A program made the translations under genes and the position numbers. Source: a virus. Taken from it: a stretch of DNA of 27,399 bases. The stretch covers positions 1 through 27,399 of IMG/VR virus record IMGVR_UViG_3300031455_000005, one strand, 5' to 3'. How positions within the stretch are numbered: the first letter of the stretch is position 1; each line of letters starts with the position of its first letter. This document shows positions 4,851 to 14,110 of this stretch, piece by piece. Below the pieces are notes generated by a model. It saw only the letters and a list, made by a program, of their open reading frames with translations, did no database searches and was not told the origin of the DNA.

Positions 4851-5372
4851 TCAGTCCGCCTGCTGCTCGAAGGGCGCCACCACGAAGTCCTCGACGCCGG
4901 TGACGACGTTGATGCCGGCCACGCCGGCCACGGCCTTCGGTTCGTTGAGGATGGCTTCCTTGTTGACCTCCTCCTTGGTGCGCACGAACTGGCCCAGGCC
5001 CAGGCGCTTAAGGGTTTCGATGACCGTGTCGGCGCCGCGGATCGCCACGCTCGGCGGCCGCTGCCGCCAGCTCACTTCGCCGGTCACCAGGTTGGCCGTC
5101 TTCACGCGCCCGCTGTCGGTCAGCGTCTCGCGGTTGGCCTCGCACCAGGTCTGGATGCCCTGCTGCAGCAGCTTGGCCCGCTCTGCCAGCGCGTCCAGCT
5201 CGGGCTGGTGCAGTGCGGTGATGCCGGCGATCGCATCGTTCATTTCCGTGGTGCGGCGCAGGTGCTCGCGCTGCAGCGCACCCAGCGCGCCGATGTCGCG
5301 CGCGCAGTCGTCGCGGCTTTGCGGCGCGTCCTTGGCCTTGCTCTTGATGCGGGTCTTCGTGGTCGTACTCAA
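4851..5372 (-). CDS. gam: Mu Gam-like host-nuclease inhibitor
   Basis: 173 residues with the Gam family layout. A basic N-terminus is followed by a long coiled-coil (residues 20-75, including LGALQREHLRRTTEMNDAIAGI and AERAKLLQQGIQTWCEANRETL), then a beta-rich 'VKTANLVTGEVSWRQRPPSV' core that is the best marker of this family, and a C-terminal helix (TVIETLKRLGLGQFVRTKEEVNK). Mu Gam, a Ku relative, binds DNA double-strand ends and blocks exonucleases. The start is a TTG that overlaps the upstream TGA (TTGA), with AGGAG 8 nt upstream. A non-ATG start is unusual and may limit expression. Confidence 0.88.
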   Translation of the reverse strand: MSTTTKTRIKSKAKDAPQSRDDCARDIGALGALQREHLRRTTEMNDAIAGITALHQPELDALAERAKLLQQGIQTWCEANRETLTDSGRVKTANLVTGEVSWRQRPPSVAIRGADTVIETLKRLGLGQFVRTKEEVNKEAILNEPKAVAGVAGINVVTGVEDFVVAPFEQQAD

Positions 5373-5623
5373 GATGGAATCTCCTGTGCTTCAGGGTTGG
5401 AAAGGGCTCGCACGCAGCCGGTAGCCGCGTCGGCCGCCTGGCGGTACTCATTCAGCAGGCGCAGCGCGTGGTGCGGCCCCTGCCGGTTCTGGAAGGCGCC
5501 CCAGGTGCGCCACACGTCGCGCTGCATCTGCAGCGGCACCGCTCGCCAGTGCGCAACGCACATCAGCCGGCCGCGCGGCACGGCCTTGGCGCAGACGGAG
5601 CACTGGGCGGTGGGCGCGCTCAC
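5369..5623 (-). CDS. small cysteine-containing phage protein
   Basis: 84 residues, starting at a GTG (SAPTAQCSVCAKAV) that overlaps the upstream stop as GTGA and has GAAGG 9 nt upstream. The pattern C-x2-C-x9-C-x2-H (CSVCAKAVPRGRLMCVAH) looks like a small zinc knuckle. The rest is helical and polar (QMQRDVWRTWGAFQNRQG). Short proteins with this Cys/His start directly precede Gam in other Mu-like prophages, but I do not know a function. Confidence 0.65.
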   Translation of the reverse strand: MSAPTAQCSVCAKAVPRGRLMCVAHWRAVPLQMQRDVWRTWGAFQNRQGPHHALRLLNEYRQAADAATGCVRALSNPEAQEIPS

Positions 5624-5835
5624 GGGCTGACGCCTTCGACGCCGATGCCGTACAGCTCGCGCGCGGCCTGCTGCGCGTGCAGCGCAGCCCCGTCGTCGAC
5701 CAGCTGTGCGCACACGTTGCGCACGCGCTCCTCGCGCACGCCCAGGTGGCTGACCAGGTCGGCCAGGTCGACCCACTCGCCCTTGCGGGCCTGCAGGCGG
5801 ATGAGCACGCATGCGCGCAGGGCGTAGGCGCTCAT
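5620..5835 (-). CDS. small winged-helix-like DNA-binding protein
   Basis: 71 residues starting MSAYALRACVLIRLQARKG. The layout helix-strand-helix with 'WVDLADLVSHLGVREERVRNVCAQLVDDGAAL' fits a winged-helix DNA-binding fold, with the recognition helix near REERVRNVCAQL. The start is coupled to the gene above by ATGA. The function is inferred from the fold-like pattern only; regulation of the operon or a replication accessory role would both fit. Confidence 0.6.
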   Translation of the reverse strand: MSAYALRACVLIRLQARKGEWVDLADLVSHLGVREERVRNVCAQLVDDGAALHAQQAARELYGIGVEGVSP

Positions 5836-6485
5836 GACTGGGCCTCGACCGTCTGCGCCAGGGCGGAAAGCGCCAGGCGATCCAGCCACGCGAACAGCGC
5901 GCGTGTCGACTCCGCGCTCAGCCGGCCCTCGATGCCGTCCGCGCGCAGCGACAGCTGGCCATTGCTGTCGATCGCGAACCAGGGGCTCGGGCTGATCGCC
6001 TTGGGCGGCGCGGACGGCTGCGCCGGCGCATGCGCGCGATCGATGTTCACACCGGCTTGGCGGGCGGCAGCCGAAGCCGTCTGCACGTCGGCAGCCTTTG
6101 TGGCGGGCAAGCTGCCGAAGGGCCACGCCGGCGTGCCGCTGGCCTTGGCTGCGGCCACCACGGCGTCGGCCTGCGCGGCGGTGTCGACCTGTGCCTCATG
6201 GTCGGCCTCCAGCTCGTCCAGCCACACGGGCCGGTCCTCGCCCAGCGGCACCCGGTCGGTGGCCCACCAGGTGGAGAACTTGCCGTTGTCGTTCGATCGC
6301 AGGTAGCCGCTGCGCTGCAGCGACGACAGCGTGGCGCTCAGCGGCAGGCTGTCGATCTGGCTCTTGAAGTGGTCGTGCACCTGTGCCGAGCCCACGCCCG
6401 TGCGGCCACGCGCCGCCACGGCACGCCAGACGCGCCGGCTCGTCTCGGAGAGCGGCATGCGCCGGCCTGTGCGCGGCCCGCTCAC
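5832..6485 (-). CDS. hypothetical early protein with N-terminal winged helix
   Basis: 217 residues starting at a GTG (SGPRTGRRMPLSETSRRVW) with GGGAGAAG upstream and GTGA coupling. Residues 15-70 look like a winged helix: a first helix (SETSRRVWRAVA), a helix pair (GSAQVHDHFKSQ...LSATLSSLQRSG), then 'YLRSNDNGKFSTWWAT' as wing strands. Residues 85-150 are Ala/Asp/Glu-rich and likely disordered. The C-terminus (FAIDSNGQLSLRADG) resembles a short beta element plus helix. DNA binding is likely from the N-terminus. No family name is known to me. Confidence 0.65.
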   Translation of the reverse strand: MSGPRTGRRMPLSETSRRVWRAVAARGRTGVGSAQVHDHFKSQIDSLPLSATLSSLQRSGYLRSNDNGKFSTWWATDRVPLGEDRPVWLDELEADHEAQVDTAAQADAVVAAAKASGTPAWPFGSLPATKAADVQTASAAARQAGVNIDRAHAPAQPSAPPKAISPSPWFAIDSNGQLSLRADGIEGRLSAESTRALFAWLDRLALSALAQTVEAQS

Positions 6486-8673: not shown

Positions 8674-10815
8674 CTACACGGCGGTCTTAAAAGCGTCGTC
8701 GTCATCCGGCCAGGCCAGGCCACGGCCGGTGAAGTACTCGCGCAGGCGGTCGTAGTCGTGGCCCTCGGCCCAGGCACGGATCCACGCGCCGTCCTCGTCG
8801 GTCCAGGCCTGGCGGTGCTGCATCAGCCATTCGTAGCGGTCGGACGCGCTGTCGAAGAAGGCCGGGCGCGCGTCGGCGGCCACCGGCAGCAGCTTGGCGT
8901 CGGGCGCGGCCGGCAGGTCCAGCACCACGGGCGCCTGCGGCACGTCGAGCACCGGCTTCAGCTCGCGCAGCGCGGTGTCGATCTGCGCCTCGCGCCGCTT
9001 GACGATGCCCTCGACGCGCGTGCGCCGGGCGCGCTCGATCGCGGCTTCGGGGAAGTAGCCCATCTTGTTCGCCGTGGCCGATGCCTCGCAGACGAAGCGG
9101 CCGTCCAGCGTCCAGATCCACACGCGTGATGAATCGAACAAGTCGTAGTGCAACCTGATCGGGGAACCGTCCACCTCACGGTGCATCAGCTCTTCGCTGA
9201 AGTAGCTGCCGCTCATGAACTCCAGCCAGCCGCGCTTCGCGGTGCGCACGACGGCGGGCATGAACAGGTGGCGCAGCGTGGGCGCGTCGGGGATGTGCTG
9301 GTCTTCCGGTACCAGCATCGCCGCCCAGGCCTCGGCCGGCGTCATGTGCTTGCCGGCATGCGGGCCGCTGGCGTGCTTGGGCAGGCTGCTGTGACGGTGC
9401 TGCGTGTTGTAGGCATGCACCGCCTTGCCCACCGCCTGCATGAACTGCTGCCAGCTCGGCGCCTTGGCGCTCAGGCGCACCACCTCGCCGGTCTTCTCTG
9501 CCTGCCGCAGCGCGGTCTGTTCGCGGGCGAACTCCAGCCGCGCGTTGCGCACATGCCCACTGTCGGCATCGCTGCCCTGGTAGCTGCCGAACTGCCGCGC
9601 GCAGCGGATCATGTGGGTCTTCCAGCTGCGCTCGATCAGGCCGTGGCCTTGCGGATGGCCGGGGATGCCGGTGCGGTGCTCGGTGCCCAGACGCGCGAAC
9701 AGGCCGGCAATGGGGCAGTCCAGCGCCTTGGCGGTTTCGCCGGCGCCGTTGTCGCTGTAGACCAGCGCCATCTGGCCGTGCGTGCCCACCGCGCGGCGGA
9801 TGGCGTCGCCCACGGCGATGGTGTTTTCGGACAGCGACGCCGACCAGCCGGTGATCAGCCGAGTGGCCGCGTCCAGCACCACGGTGACCTCGGGCGCGAA
9901 GGGCTGCCCGTGGATCGGGTGGCGGGCCTTGGCCTTGAAGGTGTGGCCGTCGACCACAGCCACGTCCAGCGGCTTCAGCGTCGACGTGTCGCGCTTCTTG
10001 AAGGGCAGCTGCGCCGCGCGCTCGGCGCCGGTGTGCCGCGCCTTGAGCAGCGCGATGTTGGCCCGGTGGTCCAGCTTGCCCAGCGCCCGGCGCGCCTGGT
10101 CGTACAGGCGGCGCCAGTCGTCGAAGGGGCGTCCCAGCGCCAGGTTCACGGCCTGCGCGACCTCGGTCAGGTTCCGGGCCGCGCCCGTGGCCGAGTGGTA
10201 GCGCGCCAGCACGGCCGACACGTCTTCGGGCAGCTGCGACAGCGTGCCCGCCGGGGTCGGCGCGGGGATCAACGCCTGCCAGCCGCCGCTGCGGTGCGCA
10301 GACGCCCAGCGGAACAGCGTACGCACGCCGATGCGCACGCCCTTGCCGTCGCCGTCGCGCCGGGGCTTCTGGTTCGCCGTGGCGGCGACGCGCAGCAGTT
10401 CGCCGGGCACCGCGGCAGCCAGCAGCTGCGCGCTGAGCAGTTCGGCCGCGCGCGTCATGCCGCCGGCGGCGGCCATCATCGACTCGATGCGCTTGACCAG
10501 CTGCACGCGCGCATCGGCGCAGGCCGCATCGGCGCGGCTGGGCGGGCGGCGCTCGGCAACGGGTGCAGGCACCGGCGGCGCGGCAGGCTGCTCGGTGGGC
10601 AGCGCGTCGGGGGCGCGGCGCAGCTGCTCGATGAGTAGCGCGCGGCGCGTGGCGGGCGGAAGGTGGGCAGGGTCGTATTCCCGCCCACCACCACGGCCAC
10701 CGCGTGGCCGCGAGGGCACGCCCAGCTGCTGGAGTTTCCGGCGCACACCGAATTCGCTGCTCGGCATGCCGTCGAGACCAGTCAATTCGTTCGCGCTGAA
10801 CCAGCGGGATGTCAC
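8674..10815 (-). CDS. A: MuA-type DDE transposase
   Basis: 713 residues with the MuA layout. An N-terminal winged helix (about residues 4-60, 'FSANELTGLDGMPSSEFGVRR') is followed by helical end-binding domains (100-240), and an rve/DDE catalytic core. The visible acidic triad is D289 (in VAVVDG), D355 (in VYSDNGAG) and E395 (in HGLIERSW). After that come a beta-barrel-like C-domain (about 530-610) and a C-terminal tail that, as in Mu, probably contacts MuB. It cuts and joins phage ends during replicative transposition. The start is a GTG overlapping the upstream stop as GTGA, with GAGG 7 nt upstream. Family confidence is high; exact residue numbers are my count. Confidence 0.95.
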   Translation of the reverse strand: MTSRWFSANELTGLDGMPSSEFGVRRKLQQLGVPSRPRGGRGGGREYDPAHLPPATRRALLIEQLRRAPDALPTEQPAAPPVPAPVAERRPPSRADAACADARVQLVKRIESMMAAAGGMTRAAELLSAQLLAAAVPGELLRVAATANQKPRRDGDGKGVRIGVRTLFRWASAHRSGGWQALIPAPTPAGTLSQLPEDVSAVLARYHSATGAARNLTEVAQAVNLALGRPFDDWRRLYDQARRALGKLDHRANIALLKARHTGAERAAQLPFKKRDTSTLKPLDVAVVDGHTFKAKARHPIHGQPFAPEVTVVLDAATRLITGWSASLSENTIAVGDAIRRAVGTHGQMALVYSDNGAGETAKALDCPIAGLFARLGTEHRTGIPGHPQGHGLIERSWKTHMIRCARQFGSYQGSDADSGHVRNARLEFAREQTALRQAEKTGEVVRLSAKAPSWQQFMQAVGKAVHAYNTQHRHSSLPKHASGPHAGKHMTPAEAWAAMLVPEDQHIPDAPTLRHLFMPAVVRTAKRGWLEFMSGSYFSEELMHREVDGSPIRLHYDLFDSSRVWIWTLDGRFVCEASATANKMGYFPEAAIERARRTRVEGIVKRREAQIDTALRELKPVLDVPQAPVVLDLPAAPDAKLLPVAADARPAFFDSASDRYEWLMQHRQAWTDEDGAWIRAWAEGHDYDRLREYFTGRGLAWPDDDDAFKTAV

Positions 10816-11363
10816 GCGACTACCTCAGTTGCGCCGTAGCGCGACGGGGGCACTCCTCCCATGGCGATCAGCACGCCGCGCGATGTGCCCGCACGACACG
10901 AAGTCCTGCCTCTCAGGACGCGATAGACCGTGCTCTGTTCGAAGCCCTGTTCATGGCACCAGGCAAGGATTGATTTGTCCTGCGCTTCCAGCTGGGCCAG
11001 GAATCTCGCCTTCCAGTTGCAGCCATCCGACGCTTCAGGATCAGGCGCTGGCGCTGGCGTAGCCACCGCTTTTTCGGCGTGCGCTGCGCTTCCACCGCCG
11101 GAGCGATGATCGCCAAGAAGGTAGATCAGGTCGAGCTTTGCAACGAAGAGGCGGAGCAGCACAGTGGCGCTCGGCTCTGAGACGCCGCGCTCGTATCGCC
11201 CGTACATTGCAACAGTCACACCGACGAGTGCAGCGGCATCGGCCTGGCTCAGCCCTGCGGCCTCTCGCTCCTCGCGTAGTCGAGCGCCGCAGTTTTTGCT
11301 GTGCCACGAGTCCATGATCGAAGCGCGACCGTCCGCGCGGAGGCGATAACGCGGCTTCTTCAC
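10812..11363 (-). CDS. XRE-HTH plus gp16-like fused regulator
   Basis: 183 residues starting at GTG (KKPRYRLRADG), with GGGAGG 5 nt upstream and GTGA coupling to the upstream gene. Residues 25-85 form an XRE helix-turn-helix: 'LREEREAAGLSQADAAALVGVTVAMYGRYERG'. This is followed by 'AKLDLIYLLG', which also resembles the repressor's 'AKVDVLYVLTG'. After a Pro/Ala linker, residues 122-175 match the whole neighbouring 78-residue protein (FLA.L...D...W, S.VY.V..GR, R.G..R.V..AMG.VP). The likely role is a Ner/Cro-like early regulator that competes with or modulates the repressor. The fusion is unusual. An ATG at 11315 is a weaker alternative start. Confidence 0.8.
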   Translation of the reverse strand: MKKPRYRLRADGRASIMDSWHSKNCGARLREEREAAGLSQADAAALVGVTVAMYGRYERGVSEPSATVLLRLFVAKLDLIYLLGDHRSGGGSAAHAEKAVATPAPAPDPEASDGCNWKARFLAQLEAQDKSILAWCHEQGFEQSTVYRVLRGRTSCRAGTSRGVLIAMGGVPPSRYGATEVVA

Positions 11364-11596
11364 GCAGCCTCCCGCGCGGAGGTCGCGGCCTGTGCGTGCA
11401 TGACCGGCACAGGTACGCCCATTGCCTTCATGACTTGGCGAGCAGCGCCACGCGCGCCTACCGATCGACCTGCTGCGACCTGATAAACGACGCTCATCGG
11501 CAGCTTTTTCTGGCGCGCCCACTGCGCCAAGGTCATATCGCGGCGAGAGAGGTCCGCCAAAAACGTGGCGACGCTCGGTTGGGGGGAGTGCTTCAT
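11360..11596 (-). CDS. BcepMu gp16-like regulator
   Basis: 78 residues starting MKHSPQPSVATFLADLSRRD. The core 'LAQWARQKKLPMSVVYQVAAGRSVGARG' is the pattern of a small family of phage regulators typified by BcepMu gp16: a helix, a helix-turn-helix with SVVYQV as recognition helix, then a conserved 'GRS.G.RG.A..VMKAMGV'. It is the first gene of the early operon, opposite the repressor, so it probably controls the divergent region. The ribosome site is poor (AAGGG at distance). Its domain recurs in the C-terminal half of the next gene. Confidence 0.78.
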   Translation of the reverse strand: MKHSPQPSVATFLADLSRRDMTLAQWARQKKLPMSVVYQVAAGRSVGARGAARQVMKAMGVPVPVMHAQAATSAREAA

Positions 11597-11709: not shown

Positions 11710-12186
11710 ATGGATGAAGAGGACACCGCGGCCCGCCGCGCACTTGCGGATCGGCTCAAGCGGGAATGCAGTCGCCTGGACCTCCAGCCCGAAGACCTAG
11801 CCGACAAGTCAGGGGTGCATAGGTCCACCGCGTTCAACTACCTAGCTGGCGCTCGGGTGCCGGACGCTCTGGTACTTGCTCGCATGCAGTTGCAGGCGAA
11901 GGTGGACGTGCTCTATGTGCTTACGGGTGAGCGCGATCTGCCAGCCCAGCTGAGTGCTGCAGAGAAGGAACTGCTGCAGCGGTACGACTCCCTTCCCGCG
12001 AAGCTCCGGACCTTCGTCGACCAGGCCCTGCTGCTGAGTCATCTGGCGTACAGCGATCGAAAGCGCTATCACGAAGAAGACGAGGCTGTGGCGCAGGTGT
12101 CGATCAAGGGAAAGGCCAACAAGGTCGGCAACGTCGCCGGCCGCGACGTGACGATCAACGCGCCGCCTAAGAAGAAGGGGCGTTGA
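11710..12186 (+). CDS. phage repressor (XRE family)
   Basis: 158 residues starting MDEEDTAARRALADRLKREC, with AAAGG 6 nt upstream. Residues 8-65 contain an XRE helix-turn-helix (LDLQPEDLADKSGVHRSTAFNYLAG). After 'AKVDVLYVLTGERD' a helical C-terminal part follows (LSAAEKELLQRYDSL...RTFVDQALLLSHLAY). It ends with 'VGNVAGRDVTIN' and a basic tail (PPKKKGR). Position opposite the early operon and orientation make it the likely lysogenic repressor. No RecA-cleavage peptidase domain is present, so induction must work differently from lambda-type repressors. An upstream in-frame ATG at 11629 is possible but has no better site. Confidence 0.8.
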   Translation: MDEEDTAARRALADRLKRECSRLDLQPEDLADKSGVHRSTAFNYLAGARVPDALVLARMQLQAKVDVLYVLTGERDLPAQLSAAEKELLQRYDSLPAKLRTFVDQALLLSHLAYSDRKRYHEEDEAVAQVSIKGKANKVGNVAGRDVTINAPPKKKGR

Positions 12187-12187
12187 G

Positions 12188-12856
12188 ATGGCCAGCAAGA
12201 AGGACGGACCCGGTCCGCAGGAGGTTGTTGATCCGCACGCAGAGTCGGAAAGCGCGCTTGCAGCTGTCGCGTTTCAGAAGAGCTCGTCGGCGAGCATGCC
12301 TATGGCCGTCGCAGTGGCGCAGCGTTCCCCCGGCTATCGTTTTGCGTACATCGAGGGGCGCGCCGTGCACTTCAGCGTCTTCGGCCCGACCGTCGCCGAA
12401 GCAATGAACGCCGTGTCATTGCTCAAGCTGACCGTGGGTTGGAAGGGGGTGCTCTGCTACTCTCGTGGCCGCCCGGTTGATGCCCATCGCTTGCTTGAGG
12501 TCCTGGATTGCTATGTAGCGGCAACGCGGTGCGTGGACAGGCGAGCCCATTGCCACGCGGTGATCGATGATCCGATGATTCCGAGGGCACCCGCTTACTA
12601 CGGCGGAATTACGATCGCCATGAGCCGGGCCAACCCGCCGCTCATCAAGGAGGTGGTCATCGCCCGCTACGCGTTTCCGTGCGTTCGGCTGCAGTCGCGC
12701 TTTCGGTTCCAGCCAGACCATCCGGCCACGCTGCGAAATCAGATTCAGGCGGCCGCCGCCGCGCAGGACTACGACGTTTGCCCCTTCTTTGATGCGGATG
12801 CATTCGAGGTGGTAGGTGAACGACGTGAGCAACACGAGGTCTTCGACCGGTACTGA
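12188..12856 (+). CDS. hypothetical accessory phage protein
   Basis: 222 residues starting MASKKDGPGPQEVVDPHAES. The ATG is one base after the repressor's TGA, so it is probably co-transcribed. The N-terminal 45 residues are Ala/Ser-rich and likely disordered. Residues 50-220 look like an alpha/beta fold with strands (YRFAYIEGRAVHFSVFG, KGVLCYSRG, EVVIARYAFPCVRL). It has four cysteines in scattered positions. Base use is visibly less GC-rich than that of the early operon, which suggests separate acquisition. I do not recognise a family. Expression from the lysogen together with the repressor is inferred from position. Confidence 0.65.
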   Translation: MASKKDGPGPQEVVDPHAESESALAAVAFQKSSSASMPMAVAVAQRSPGYRFAYIEGRAVHFSVFGPTVAEAMNAVSLLKLTVGWKGVLCYSRGRPVDAHRLLEVLDCYVAATRCVDRRAHCHAVIDDPMIPRAPAYYGGITIAMSRANPPLIKEVVIARYAFPCVRLQSRFRFQPDHPATLRNQIQAAAAAQDYDVCPFFDADAFEVVGERREQHEVFDRY

Positions 12857-12877
12857 GCGCGCCGACCGATCGATCGA

Positions 12878-12900
12878 GGGTGTCGATTCAACCGACACCC
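12878..12900. terminator. perfect 8-bp inverted repeat (hairpin) between genes
   Basis: GGGTGTCG and CGACACCC flank a 7-nt loop ATTCAAC, giving a perfect stem. It lies between two co-oriented genes. There is no following T-run (TTAACAAC follows), so it may be a weak terminator, an operator or an RNA-processing element. An alternative GTG start for the next gene falls inside it. Confidence 0.5.
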
Positions 12901-12927
12901 TTAACAACAAGCCGAAGCGCTGACGCA

Positions 12928-13734
12928 ATGGACCTCAGTCAATACCCGCCGTGCCCGTACTGCGGCGAACCGCTGCCGCGAAACCCGCAGGGCAGGATCA
13001 AGTGCCCGCACTGCGGGGGCGTCGTGCGCGTGAAGTACACGCCGGACAACCCGGAGCGGCGCGTGATGACAAAGGCCCAGGCAGACGTGGCCGACAAGCA
13101 ATGGGCCGCACACCAGCAGCAGGCGTTCGCTGACACGTTGGCCGCGCACGGCGTCTCGTCCGACCAATGGGCGAAGAGGGAGCGGTCGATGCTTCGGTTC
13201 GGACAGAGCGTCCCGGTCGATGCAGTCCACGACGCGTGGACAAGCGGCGACGTGAAACAGATGCTCAAGGTGCTGAGCCACGACACCAATCCGGTGGAGC
13301 GGCACTTCCTGCTGCTGTCGCTGGTGCGGGCGCTGTACAAGGATCGCGATGATCCCCGTGTTCGCTCGAAGCTCCTGAAGATCGGTGACCTCCATCTCGC
13401 GGAACTGGCCGAGCTGCTGCCGGCGCTGTACCGCGACGACGCGATGAACGCCGATGCACATGACGCGCTGATGGCCAAGTACTCCACCCCATCAGATCCC
13501 CCGCGAGCCGTCAGCGACGAATCGGCCACCTCTCGCAGCTATTCGGTGCCGACGTTTCTTCTCTTGGTCCGCGCCTACTGCGAAGACGAGAAATACGACA
13601 AGGCTCGCGCGGTCTGGCGGCGCGCCCACGAAATCGGCTACATCGACGATGCCGATCTGGCCAAGGAGCTGGAAGGCGTCGAGAAGCGCAAGCGGCGCAA
13701 CGACAAGAAGAAGGCCGCAGACACAGGCGCGTGA
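12928..13734 (+). CDS. zinc-ribbon accessory protein
   Basis: 268 residues. The N-terminus holds a zinc ribbon: C9, C12, C26 and C29 in 'CPYCGEPL...KCPHCGG'. The rest is mostly helical, with segments resembling repeat-like helical hairpins (VRALYKDRDDPRVRSKLLKIG, PTFLLLVRAYCEDEKYDKARAVWRRAHEIG), reminiscent of TPR-type solenoids. The C-terminus is a Lys/Arg run (KRKRRNDKKKAA). It may be a protein- or nucleic-acid-binding scaffold, but no catalytic residues are visible. The ATG at 12928 is chosen because the Cys-rich domain starts right after it. The ribosome site is weak. The family is not recognised. Confidence 0.65.
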   Translation: MDLSQYPPCPYCGEPLPRNPQGRIKCPHCGGVVRVKYTPDNPERRVMTKAQADVADKQWAAHQQQAFADTLAAHGVSSDQWAKRERSMLRFGQSVPVDAVHDAWTSGDVKQMLKVLSHDTNPVERHFLLLSLVRALYKDRDDPRVRSKLLKIGDLHLAELAELLPALYRDDAMNADAHDALMAKYSTPSDPPRAVSDESATSRSYSVPTFLLLVRAYCEDEKYDKARAVWRRAHEIGYIDDADLAKELEGVEKRKRRNDKKKAADTGA

Positions 13735-13810
13735 GGAGGTGCGCCCCCTCAATCGCGCGTCGGGTTCATCGCTACGCGGCGCGCGCAGCCGCCATCCCAG
13801 AATGGGGTGC

Positions 13811-14110
13811 ATGCCGACGATCAAGAACGTCCACAGCCGAGTCCGGCACCTGGCTGGCCGCGACATCAACATCCACTACGGCGGCGCCGCTGCAGCCCCG
13901 CCCGACGATGCCAGCCTGGTGATGATCTGCCCGCAGTGCGGACAGCGCACCTGGCGGCACAGCCGGCACTGCGTGCACTGCATGCTCGACCTGTGGCTGT
14001 GGCATGCCGGCAGCGCCGTCATGGCGGGCCTGAAGGCGGCGGCCACTCTGGGCCACGTGGTGGGCCACCTGCTGCTGGACAGAAGGCCGCGTGGACGGGG
14101 CCGCCTGTAA
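13811..14110 (+). CDS. small zinc-ribbon protein with shared 'AGRD' motif
   Basis: 99 residues starting MPTIKNVHSRVRHLAGRDIN. The first 25 residues contain VRHLAGRDINIH, close to VGNVAGRDVTIN at the repressor's C-terminus. Residues 40-57 form a zinc ribbon (C40, C43, C54, C57: CPQCGQ...RHCVHC). Residues 60-90 are hydrophobic/amphipathic (LDLWLWHAGSAVMAGLKAAATLG) and may contact a membrane or another protein. An in-frame ATG three codons earlier is an alternative start. Function unknown. The shared motif suggests a link to repressor-type proteins. Confidence 0.62.
   Translation: MPTIKNVHSRVRHLAGRDINIHYGGAAAAPPDDASLVMICPQCGQRTWRHSRHCVHCMLDLWLWHAGSAVMAGLKAAATLGHVVGHLLLDRRPRGRGRL

Follow-up and report, generated by a model that had tools for sequence, protein, structure and literature searches.

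What links the short repressor of a Mu-like transposable phage to a small zinc-ribbon protein encoded further along the same strand? Both genes lie in a 27.4-kb virus record, analysed over its 27,399 nucleotides (hereafter the window), in which a Mu-type transposase was matched (Table 1). The repressor, P0001, has weak Pfam matches to HTH_3 and HTH_31 and a match to PHROG 2328 'transcriptional repressor' (E=3.7e-9). It fits the short HTH phage immunity repressors, with an HTH_3-type domain and an orientation divergent to the transposase and Ner genes. No LexA/CI-type C-terminal peptidase or oligomerisation domain was found in P0001 with Pfam, or with PHROGs beyond the HTH. Its AlphaFold2 model contains helices and a tail only: residues 1-118 form confident helices, and the tail (119-158) is of low confidence (about 50), with faint strand pairing. 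Two adjoining HTH genes of the window, at 10812-11315 and 11360-11596, both on the minus strand, match PHROG 925; the C-terminal half of the former resembles the latter, which suggests that a Ner-like gene may have been duplicated and fused.

Table 1. Features of the window and the support for each.
Feature	Position	Strand	Support or remark
Mu-type transposase	8674-10815	-	PHROG 310 transposase, E=4e-121; diverges from repressor
P0001, short HTH repressor of Mu-like phage, 158 aa	11710-12183 (feature to 12186)	+	Pfam, PHROG, AlphaFold2
P0001 tail motif VSIKGKANKVGNVAGRDVTIN, residues 130-150	12097-12159	+	HMM trained on P2-like prophages, alignment with relatives
Intervening gene, PHROG 16260 of unknown function	12188-12856	+	E=2.4e-30; no shared motif seen
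Intervening gene with N-terminal zinc ribbon	12928-13734	+	no shared motif seen
P0002, 99-aa zinc-ribbon protein, candidate partner	13811-14107 (feature to 14110)	+	CPQC..CVHC; weak DZR match
P0002 head motif VRHLAGRDINIH, residues 11-22 of 99	13841-13876	+	ten residues precede

A preliminary description of this DNA stated that the repressor ends, and the zinc-ribbon protein begins, with an AGRD-type segment. Both segments were located, with the AGRD codons at 12136-12147 (P0001) and 13853-13864 (P0002), and these are the sole AGRD[V/I/M] sites in the whole record on either strand. They are near the termini, but not at them. In P0001, VGNVAGRDVTIN covers residues 139-150 of 158 (12124-12159) and stops eight residues before the end, because APPKKKGR comes after it; in P0002 the segment lies ten residues inward. 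The alignment of the two proteins runs past AGRD (SIKGKANKVGNVAGRDVTIN / TIKNVHSRVRHLAGRDINIH), with a score of 44 (z=7.4 against shuffled heads), and the P0002 head ranks 3 of 21 real heads against the P0001 tail. Among the tail/head pairs of the predicted genes in the window, this pair ranks 4 of 992; the window pair alone is therefore suggestive, not decisive. A generic unbiased score test, of low power (null of 280 frames), missed the pair because the frame begins far upstream of the start codon. Across the six-frame reading frames of the window and 22 Mu-like relatives (544,307 residues), AGRD[VIL] was matched 14 times, and 8 of these matches fall at repressor tails or at the heads of following genes. 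Without the near-duplicate locus L018, the count is 5 of 11 (p~6e-10, with the favoured positions defined post hoc). Position and recurrence thus appear to make the window match more than chance.

Terminal tail/head pairs recur across Mu-like and P2-like loci. With the window transposase as query, 41 related loci were obtained. Among phages and prophages of the Mu-like and P2-like kinds, a motif of 15-30 residues rich in V, G, N and D is recurrently found at the end of short repressors, and the next gene, or the next two, after such a repressor starts with a copy of it. Matching pairs were found in the Mu-like loci L006 (AQTFHGPVGAVG / VQEFHGQVDQVA), L012, L017/L018, L100 (MVATGTGIVQVGG / MLATGSGIIQVAG) and GenBank phage KS10 (MVASGSGITQVG / MSASGFGIIQVAG), and in the P2-like GenBank phages KS5, AP3 and Carl1, in which the repressor carries QNFxGAxxGQxVTGDV and the next gene QKFxGxxGQVAGGDV. 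The L012 repressor ends in NVGGDVAGRDIK and the next gene starts with NVGGDVAGRNIS, the cores being NVGGDVAGR in both. The repressors of L017 and L018 have the ending VHVRGSGNVTAGRDVN, the next gene, for a two-TM protein, starts with FISVAGQGNVTAGRDVN, and in L018 the second following gene starts with VIYVTGWGNVTAGRDVI. AGRD-type cores recur in L105 (GDIAGRDIVN / GEVAGRDIVN) and L122 (GGVAGRDIVN / GDVAGRDITN), and tails and heads vary together, as in L128 (VSQVV/VSQLV) and L100 (VATGTGIVQVGG/LATGSGIIQVAG).

The pairs were also present in loci picked by the HTH only (L151, L155 and L162), with heads on two following genes in L162. In a Burkholderiaceae sample, 29 of 398 genomes were positive for the partner family PHROG 5825, and most of these partner genes stand behind a repressor gene with a tail similar to the head of the partner; in a wider sample of the class the partner domain was rare (2/369 genomes). 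An alignment of sister repressors showed the tail motif in the window, L006, L012, L017 and L018, and its absence in the close relatives L011, L014, L016, L023, L029 and L032, so that the tail behaves as a module that some close repressors have and others lack. There are exceptions. In L135-L138 the HTH genes next to head-bearing partners have no motif in their tails, and partner-type genes occur in L109, L112, L119, L121 and L129 with no repressor upstream in the stretch read. The heads of L109, L112, L119 and L121 read NGNVQIGQV or SGNIQIGT, with a RHIM-like VQIG/IQIG core. The repressors of L143 and L152 end in a shortened tail motif (ILHGEVEQVRKKG / PLHGPVEQVRKKS), and no partner was seen. 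A scan of IMG/VR with the motif fixed as a DNA pattern returned 42 stretches, nearly all of them interior chance matches or other proteins, and the only relevant contigs were L017/L018; a fixed-sequence search is unsuitable because the motif family is diverse.

The match between tail and head is specific to the locus. For 21 cognate pairs, the summed local score was 863, against 570+-37 under permuted pairing (p<=1e-5, to be read, like the other p-values here, as a guide, because gene lists and starts were partly chosen by eye and the loci are related), and the cognate head had a mean rank of 4.1 of 21. Permutation inside hand-made subfamilies only gave an overall p=1.5e-4, with p=0.001 for subfamily A, p=0.017 for subfamily C, which includes the window, and no locus-specific excess in cluster B (p=0.83). 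Three of the 21 pairs (L106, L110 and L113) did not score above shuffled heads, and L131 was marginal. Leave-locus-out scoring of 37 repressors not picked by motif found a strong matching head downstream of 6/8 motif-tailed repressors and of 0/29 others (Fisher p=1.2e-5, at a head cut-off of 45 set after the scores were seen); two of the six positives (L090 and L144) are P2-like, of the KS5/AP3 kind, and the motif set still contained cousins of these (e.g. L110) after their own lineage had been removed. An HMM was also built solely from P2-like tails and heads and used to rank 5040 reading frames of the window and of 22 Mu-like loci: the repressor tails of L012, L006 and the window took ranks 1, 3 and 4, and the heads of L006 and L012 took ranks 5 and 11.

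The partners are of varied types: ORF6C-like helical, two-TM and zinc-ribbon proteins. In the AlphaFold2 model of the L012 partner, the head (1-64) is of low confidence (about 32) and the helical domain is well predicted. The nearest model in BFVD is an ORF6C-domain phage protein (E=3.6e-5). Against the PDB the fold had no significant match; the best entries (E>1), the Sak recombinase from a Sak/Stl complex and the C-terminal domain of Red-beta, give only a hint. The Pfam ORF6C profile (PF10552) weakly matched the L122 partner and the L133 fusion (E=8e-4 and 1.3e-3, just under the Pfam cut-off). PHROG 17822 combines in one chain an HTH part (5-87) and an ORF6C-like partner part (89-264), and full-length fusions were read from genomes in L133 and L134. 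The linkers of these two fusions had no significant match to the motif, which would be expected if a covalent link makes the tag unnecessary.

Recurrence, position, co-occurrence, locus-specific match, disorder of the tag in two models and the fusion family support the reading that the motif is a homotypic docking tag that couples the repressor to a partner from its operon, to which we give a probability of about 0.6. The tag would be a beta-prone homotypic association segment. In the short repressor it would be carried by a flexible extension past the folded HTH domain, and in one or two proteins of the same lysogeny operon by a flexible extension that precedes their folded or membrane part. 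Pairing between like segments, probably by stacking or addition of beta-strands, would bring the partner to the repressor on its operator. This partner, whether ORF6C/antirepressor-like, TM or, here, a zinc-ribbon protein, may then control the assembly or the release of the repressor. Since the tail/head match is specific to each phage, the tag probably holds both proteins together, and the presence of like segments in up to three proteins per operon (L018, L162) argues for self-type stacking rather than a lock-and-key fit. The docking or beta-strand self-association element of the preliminary description is thus partly supported, being the reading that best fits the comparative data: recurrence in the family, co-occurrence and the locus-by-locus match speak for it, but the window pair is weaker.

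The arrangement resembles the stacking tags of fungal and bacterial cell-death signalling. In BASS pairs, formed by the C-terminus of a Bell effector and the N-terminus of an NLR, short, diverse and flexible terminal motifs likewise stand on neighbouring genes, C-terminal in one protein and N-terminal in its neighbour, and the partner often has a TM helix (PMC7889193, PMC8086366, PMC12261475). This layout is found here at the level of the family; the window pair has the matching motifs, but its genes are not adjacent. In contrast to BASS, the first protein here is a phage HTH repressor, there is no NLR (NACHT/NB-ARC) or Bell domain, and the hosts are Burkholderiales prophages rather than filamentous bacteria. 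The repressor/partner pairs perhaps work like a BASS pair, yet we do not class them as one. Some tails and heads share with RHIM, PP and BASS3 an [I/V]Q[V/I]G core with G/N before or after it; however, no profile matched, and the AGRD-type tail of the window is without such a core. PHROG 17822 and the partners PHROG 5825 and 6521, all of function unknown in PHROGs, resemble our pairs in that the two domains occur as one chain or as neighbouring genes, whereas the candidate partner in the window has a zinc ribbon and not an ORF6C-like domain. Known phage antirepressors carry Bro-N or Ant domains in front of ORF6C (PF10552), while here it is the tag motif that stands in front of the domain.

A review of amyloid signalling from 2021 asks whether bacteria have signalling amyloids outside NLR pathways (PMC7889193), and the repressor/partner pairs would be candidates for these in well-studied laboratory phages. 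Even the weaker reading, in which the docking is specific but not amyloid, would account for the assembly and regulation of short repressors that lack a CI-type C-terminal domain, and it would provide functions for several unknown phage gene families (PHROG 5825, 6521 and 17822). Each pair is small and cognate and can easily be tested. In the literature searched, mostly without subscription journals and preprints, we found no earlier description of them.

The readings that compete with a docking tag differ in what they make of the likeness. One and the same factor, from the host or the phage, could recognise both segments as short linear motifs, as the recurrence of the AGRD[VI] core in unrelated proteins would allow. 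But the match within a locus exceeds that between loci, even inside subfamilies, and tails and heads co-vary (L128, L100, L012); a common host partner would not drive the joint divergence of each pair, and we consider this reading, which the preliminary description gave as its alternative, quite improbable. Similar segments could also be left by a recent duplication or gene conversion that has no role at the protein level, or by a DNA repeat of operator type situated inside the genes. Identical residues share their codon in 100/204 cases (49%) against 82 expected (40%), most strongly in L122, L107 and the window, and this slight excess points to a contribution of recent DNA copying in some lineages. 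Even so, the motifs are in frame at both termini, and codon sharing lies close to the expectation from codon usage, so that protein sequence is what is kept; the likeness is probably mostly at the protein level with some recent copying, and an origin by DNA processes alone is very unlikely. A stronger version of the docking reading would be polymerisation of the tags as cross-beta, templated by the repressor tail or the partner head, and templating would switch the partner or remove the repressor. The BASS-like layout, the many motif families, segments that are similar rather than complementary, several TM partners and tails with an [I/V]Q[V/I]G core resembling that of RHIM (IVQVGG in L100, NVQIG in L151) are consistent with such amyloid-type signalling. 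Nevertheless, no RHIM match was obtained in Pfam to E=10 or in a PDB profile search, although the same database detected the RIPK1 RHIM peptide; neither an NLR nor a Bell protein is present, and simple dimeric strand pairing accounts for the same data. We hold polymerisation to be possible but doubtful, and only tentatively raise the wider idea that Mu-like and P2-like phages might use locus-specific signalling-amyloid motifs outside NLR systems, linking the repressor to operon effectors or antirepressors, with templated polymerisation setting or breaking lysogeny.

For the window alone, the likeness might be due to chance, with P0002 unrelated and the true partner of P0001 absent or elsewhere. 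The rank within the window would allow this, and so would several properties of P0002: the general motif HMM failed to detect its head, its gene is two genes away from P0001, and no homologues were found in the phages, plasmids, IMG/VR and species genomes searched. Yet the alignment stands well above shuffled heads and high among real ones, the record's only AGRD[VIM] sites fall at the expected termini of P0001 and P0002, and in L006 the corresponding place is taken by a gene with a head and one for a zinc-ribbon/TM protein, so that a chance match seems unlikely. The P0002 gene is coding-like (GC3 0.89) and looks genuine; the C-terminal segment of the protein is weakly hydrophobic (best 19-residue hydropathy 1.3), and Pfam found no ORF6C profile in it. 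We hold P0002 to be the likely partner of P0001, because the same termini and the same register best explain the only two AGRD sites. The pair is one of the weaker examples of tail/head pairing, and a locus with a relative of an intervening gene (L047) had no tail/head pair.

Some neighbouring genes deserve mention. In L006, a head-bearing ORF with CxxC (5326-5733, minus strand) overlaps a zinc-ribbon and TM protein (5657-5911, minus strand); these ORFs resemble P0002 split in two and may be frameshifted or a truly separate pair. The third gene after the repressor in L017 (3284-4438, minus strand) encodes a DUF4238 protein (Pfam E=2.6e-36) and is a possible moron. In PfPro and Dobby, two P2-like phages of Pseudomonas, a tiny ORF that comes after the repressor gene (L094:3370-3555 and L095:3456-3572, both on the plus strand) copies the C-terminal helix of the repressor (FYRQLSQRDQEQLRRLIEALL vs QYRSIPPDDQRAIRRFVKAM), a helical counterpart of tail copying, and is possibly a heterodimer or dominant-negative partner.
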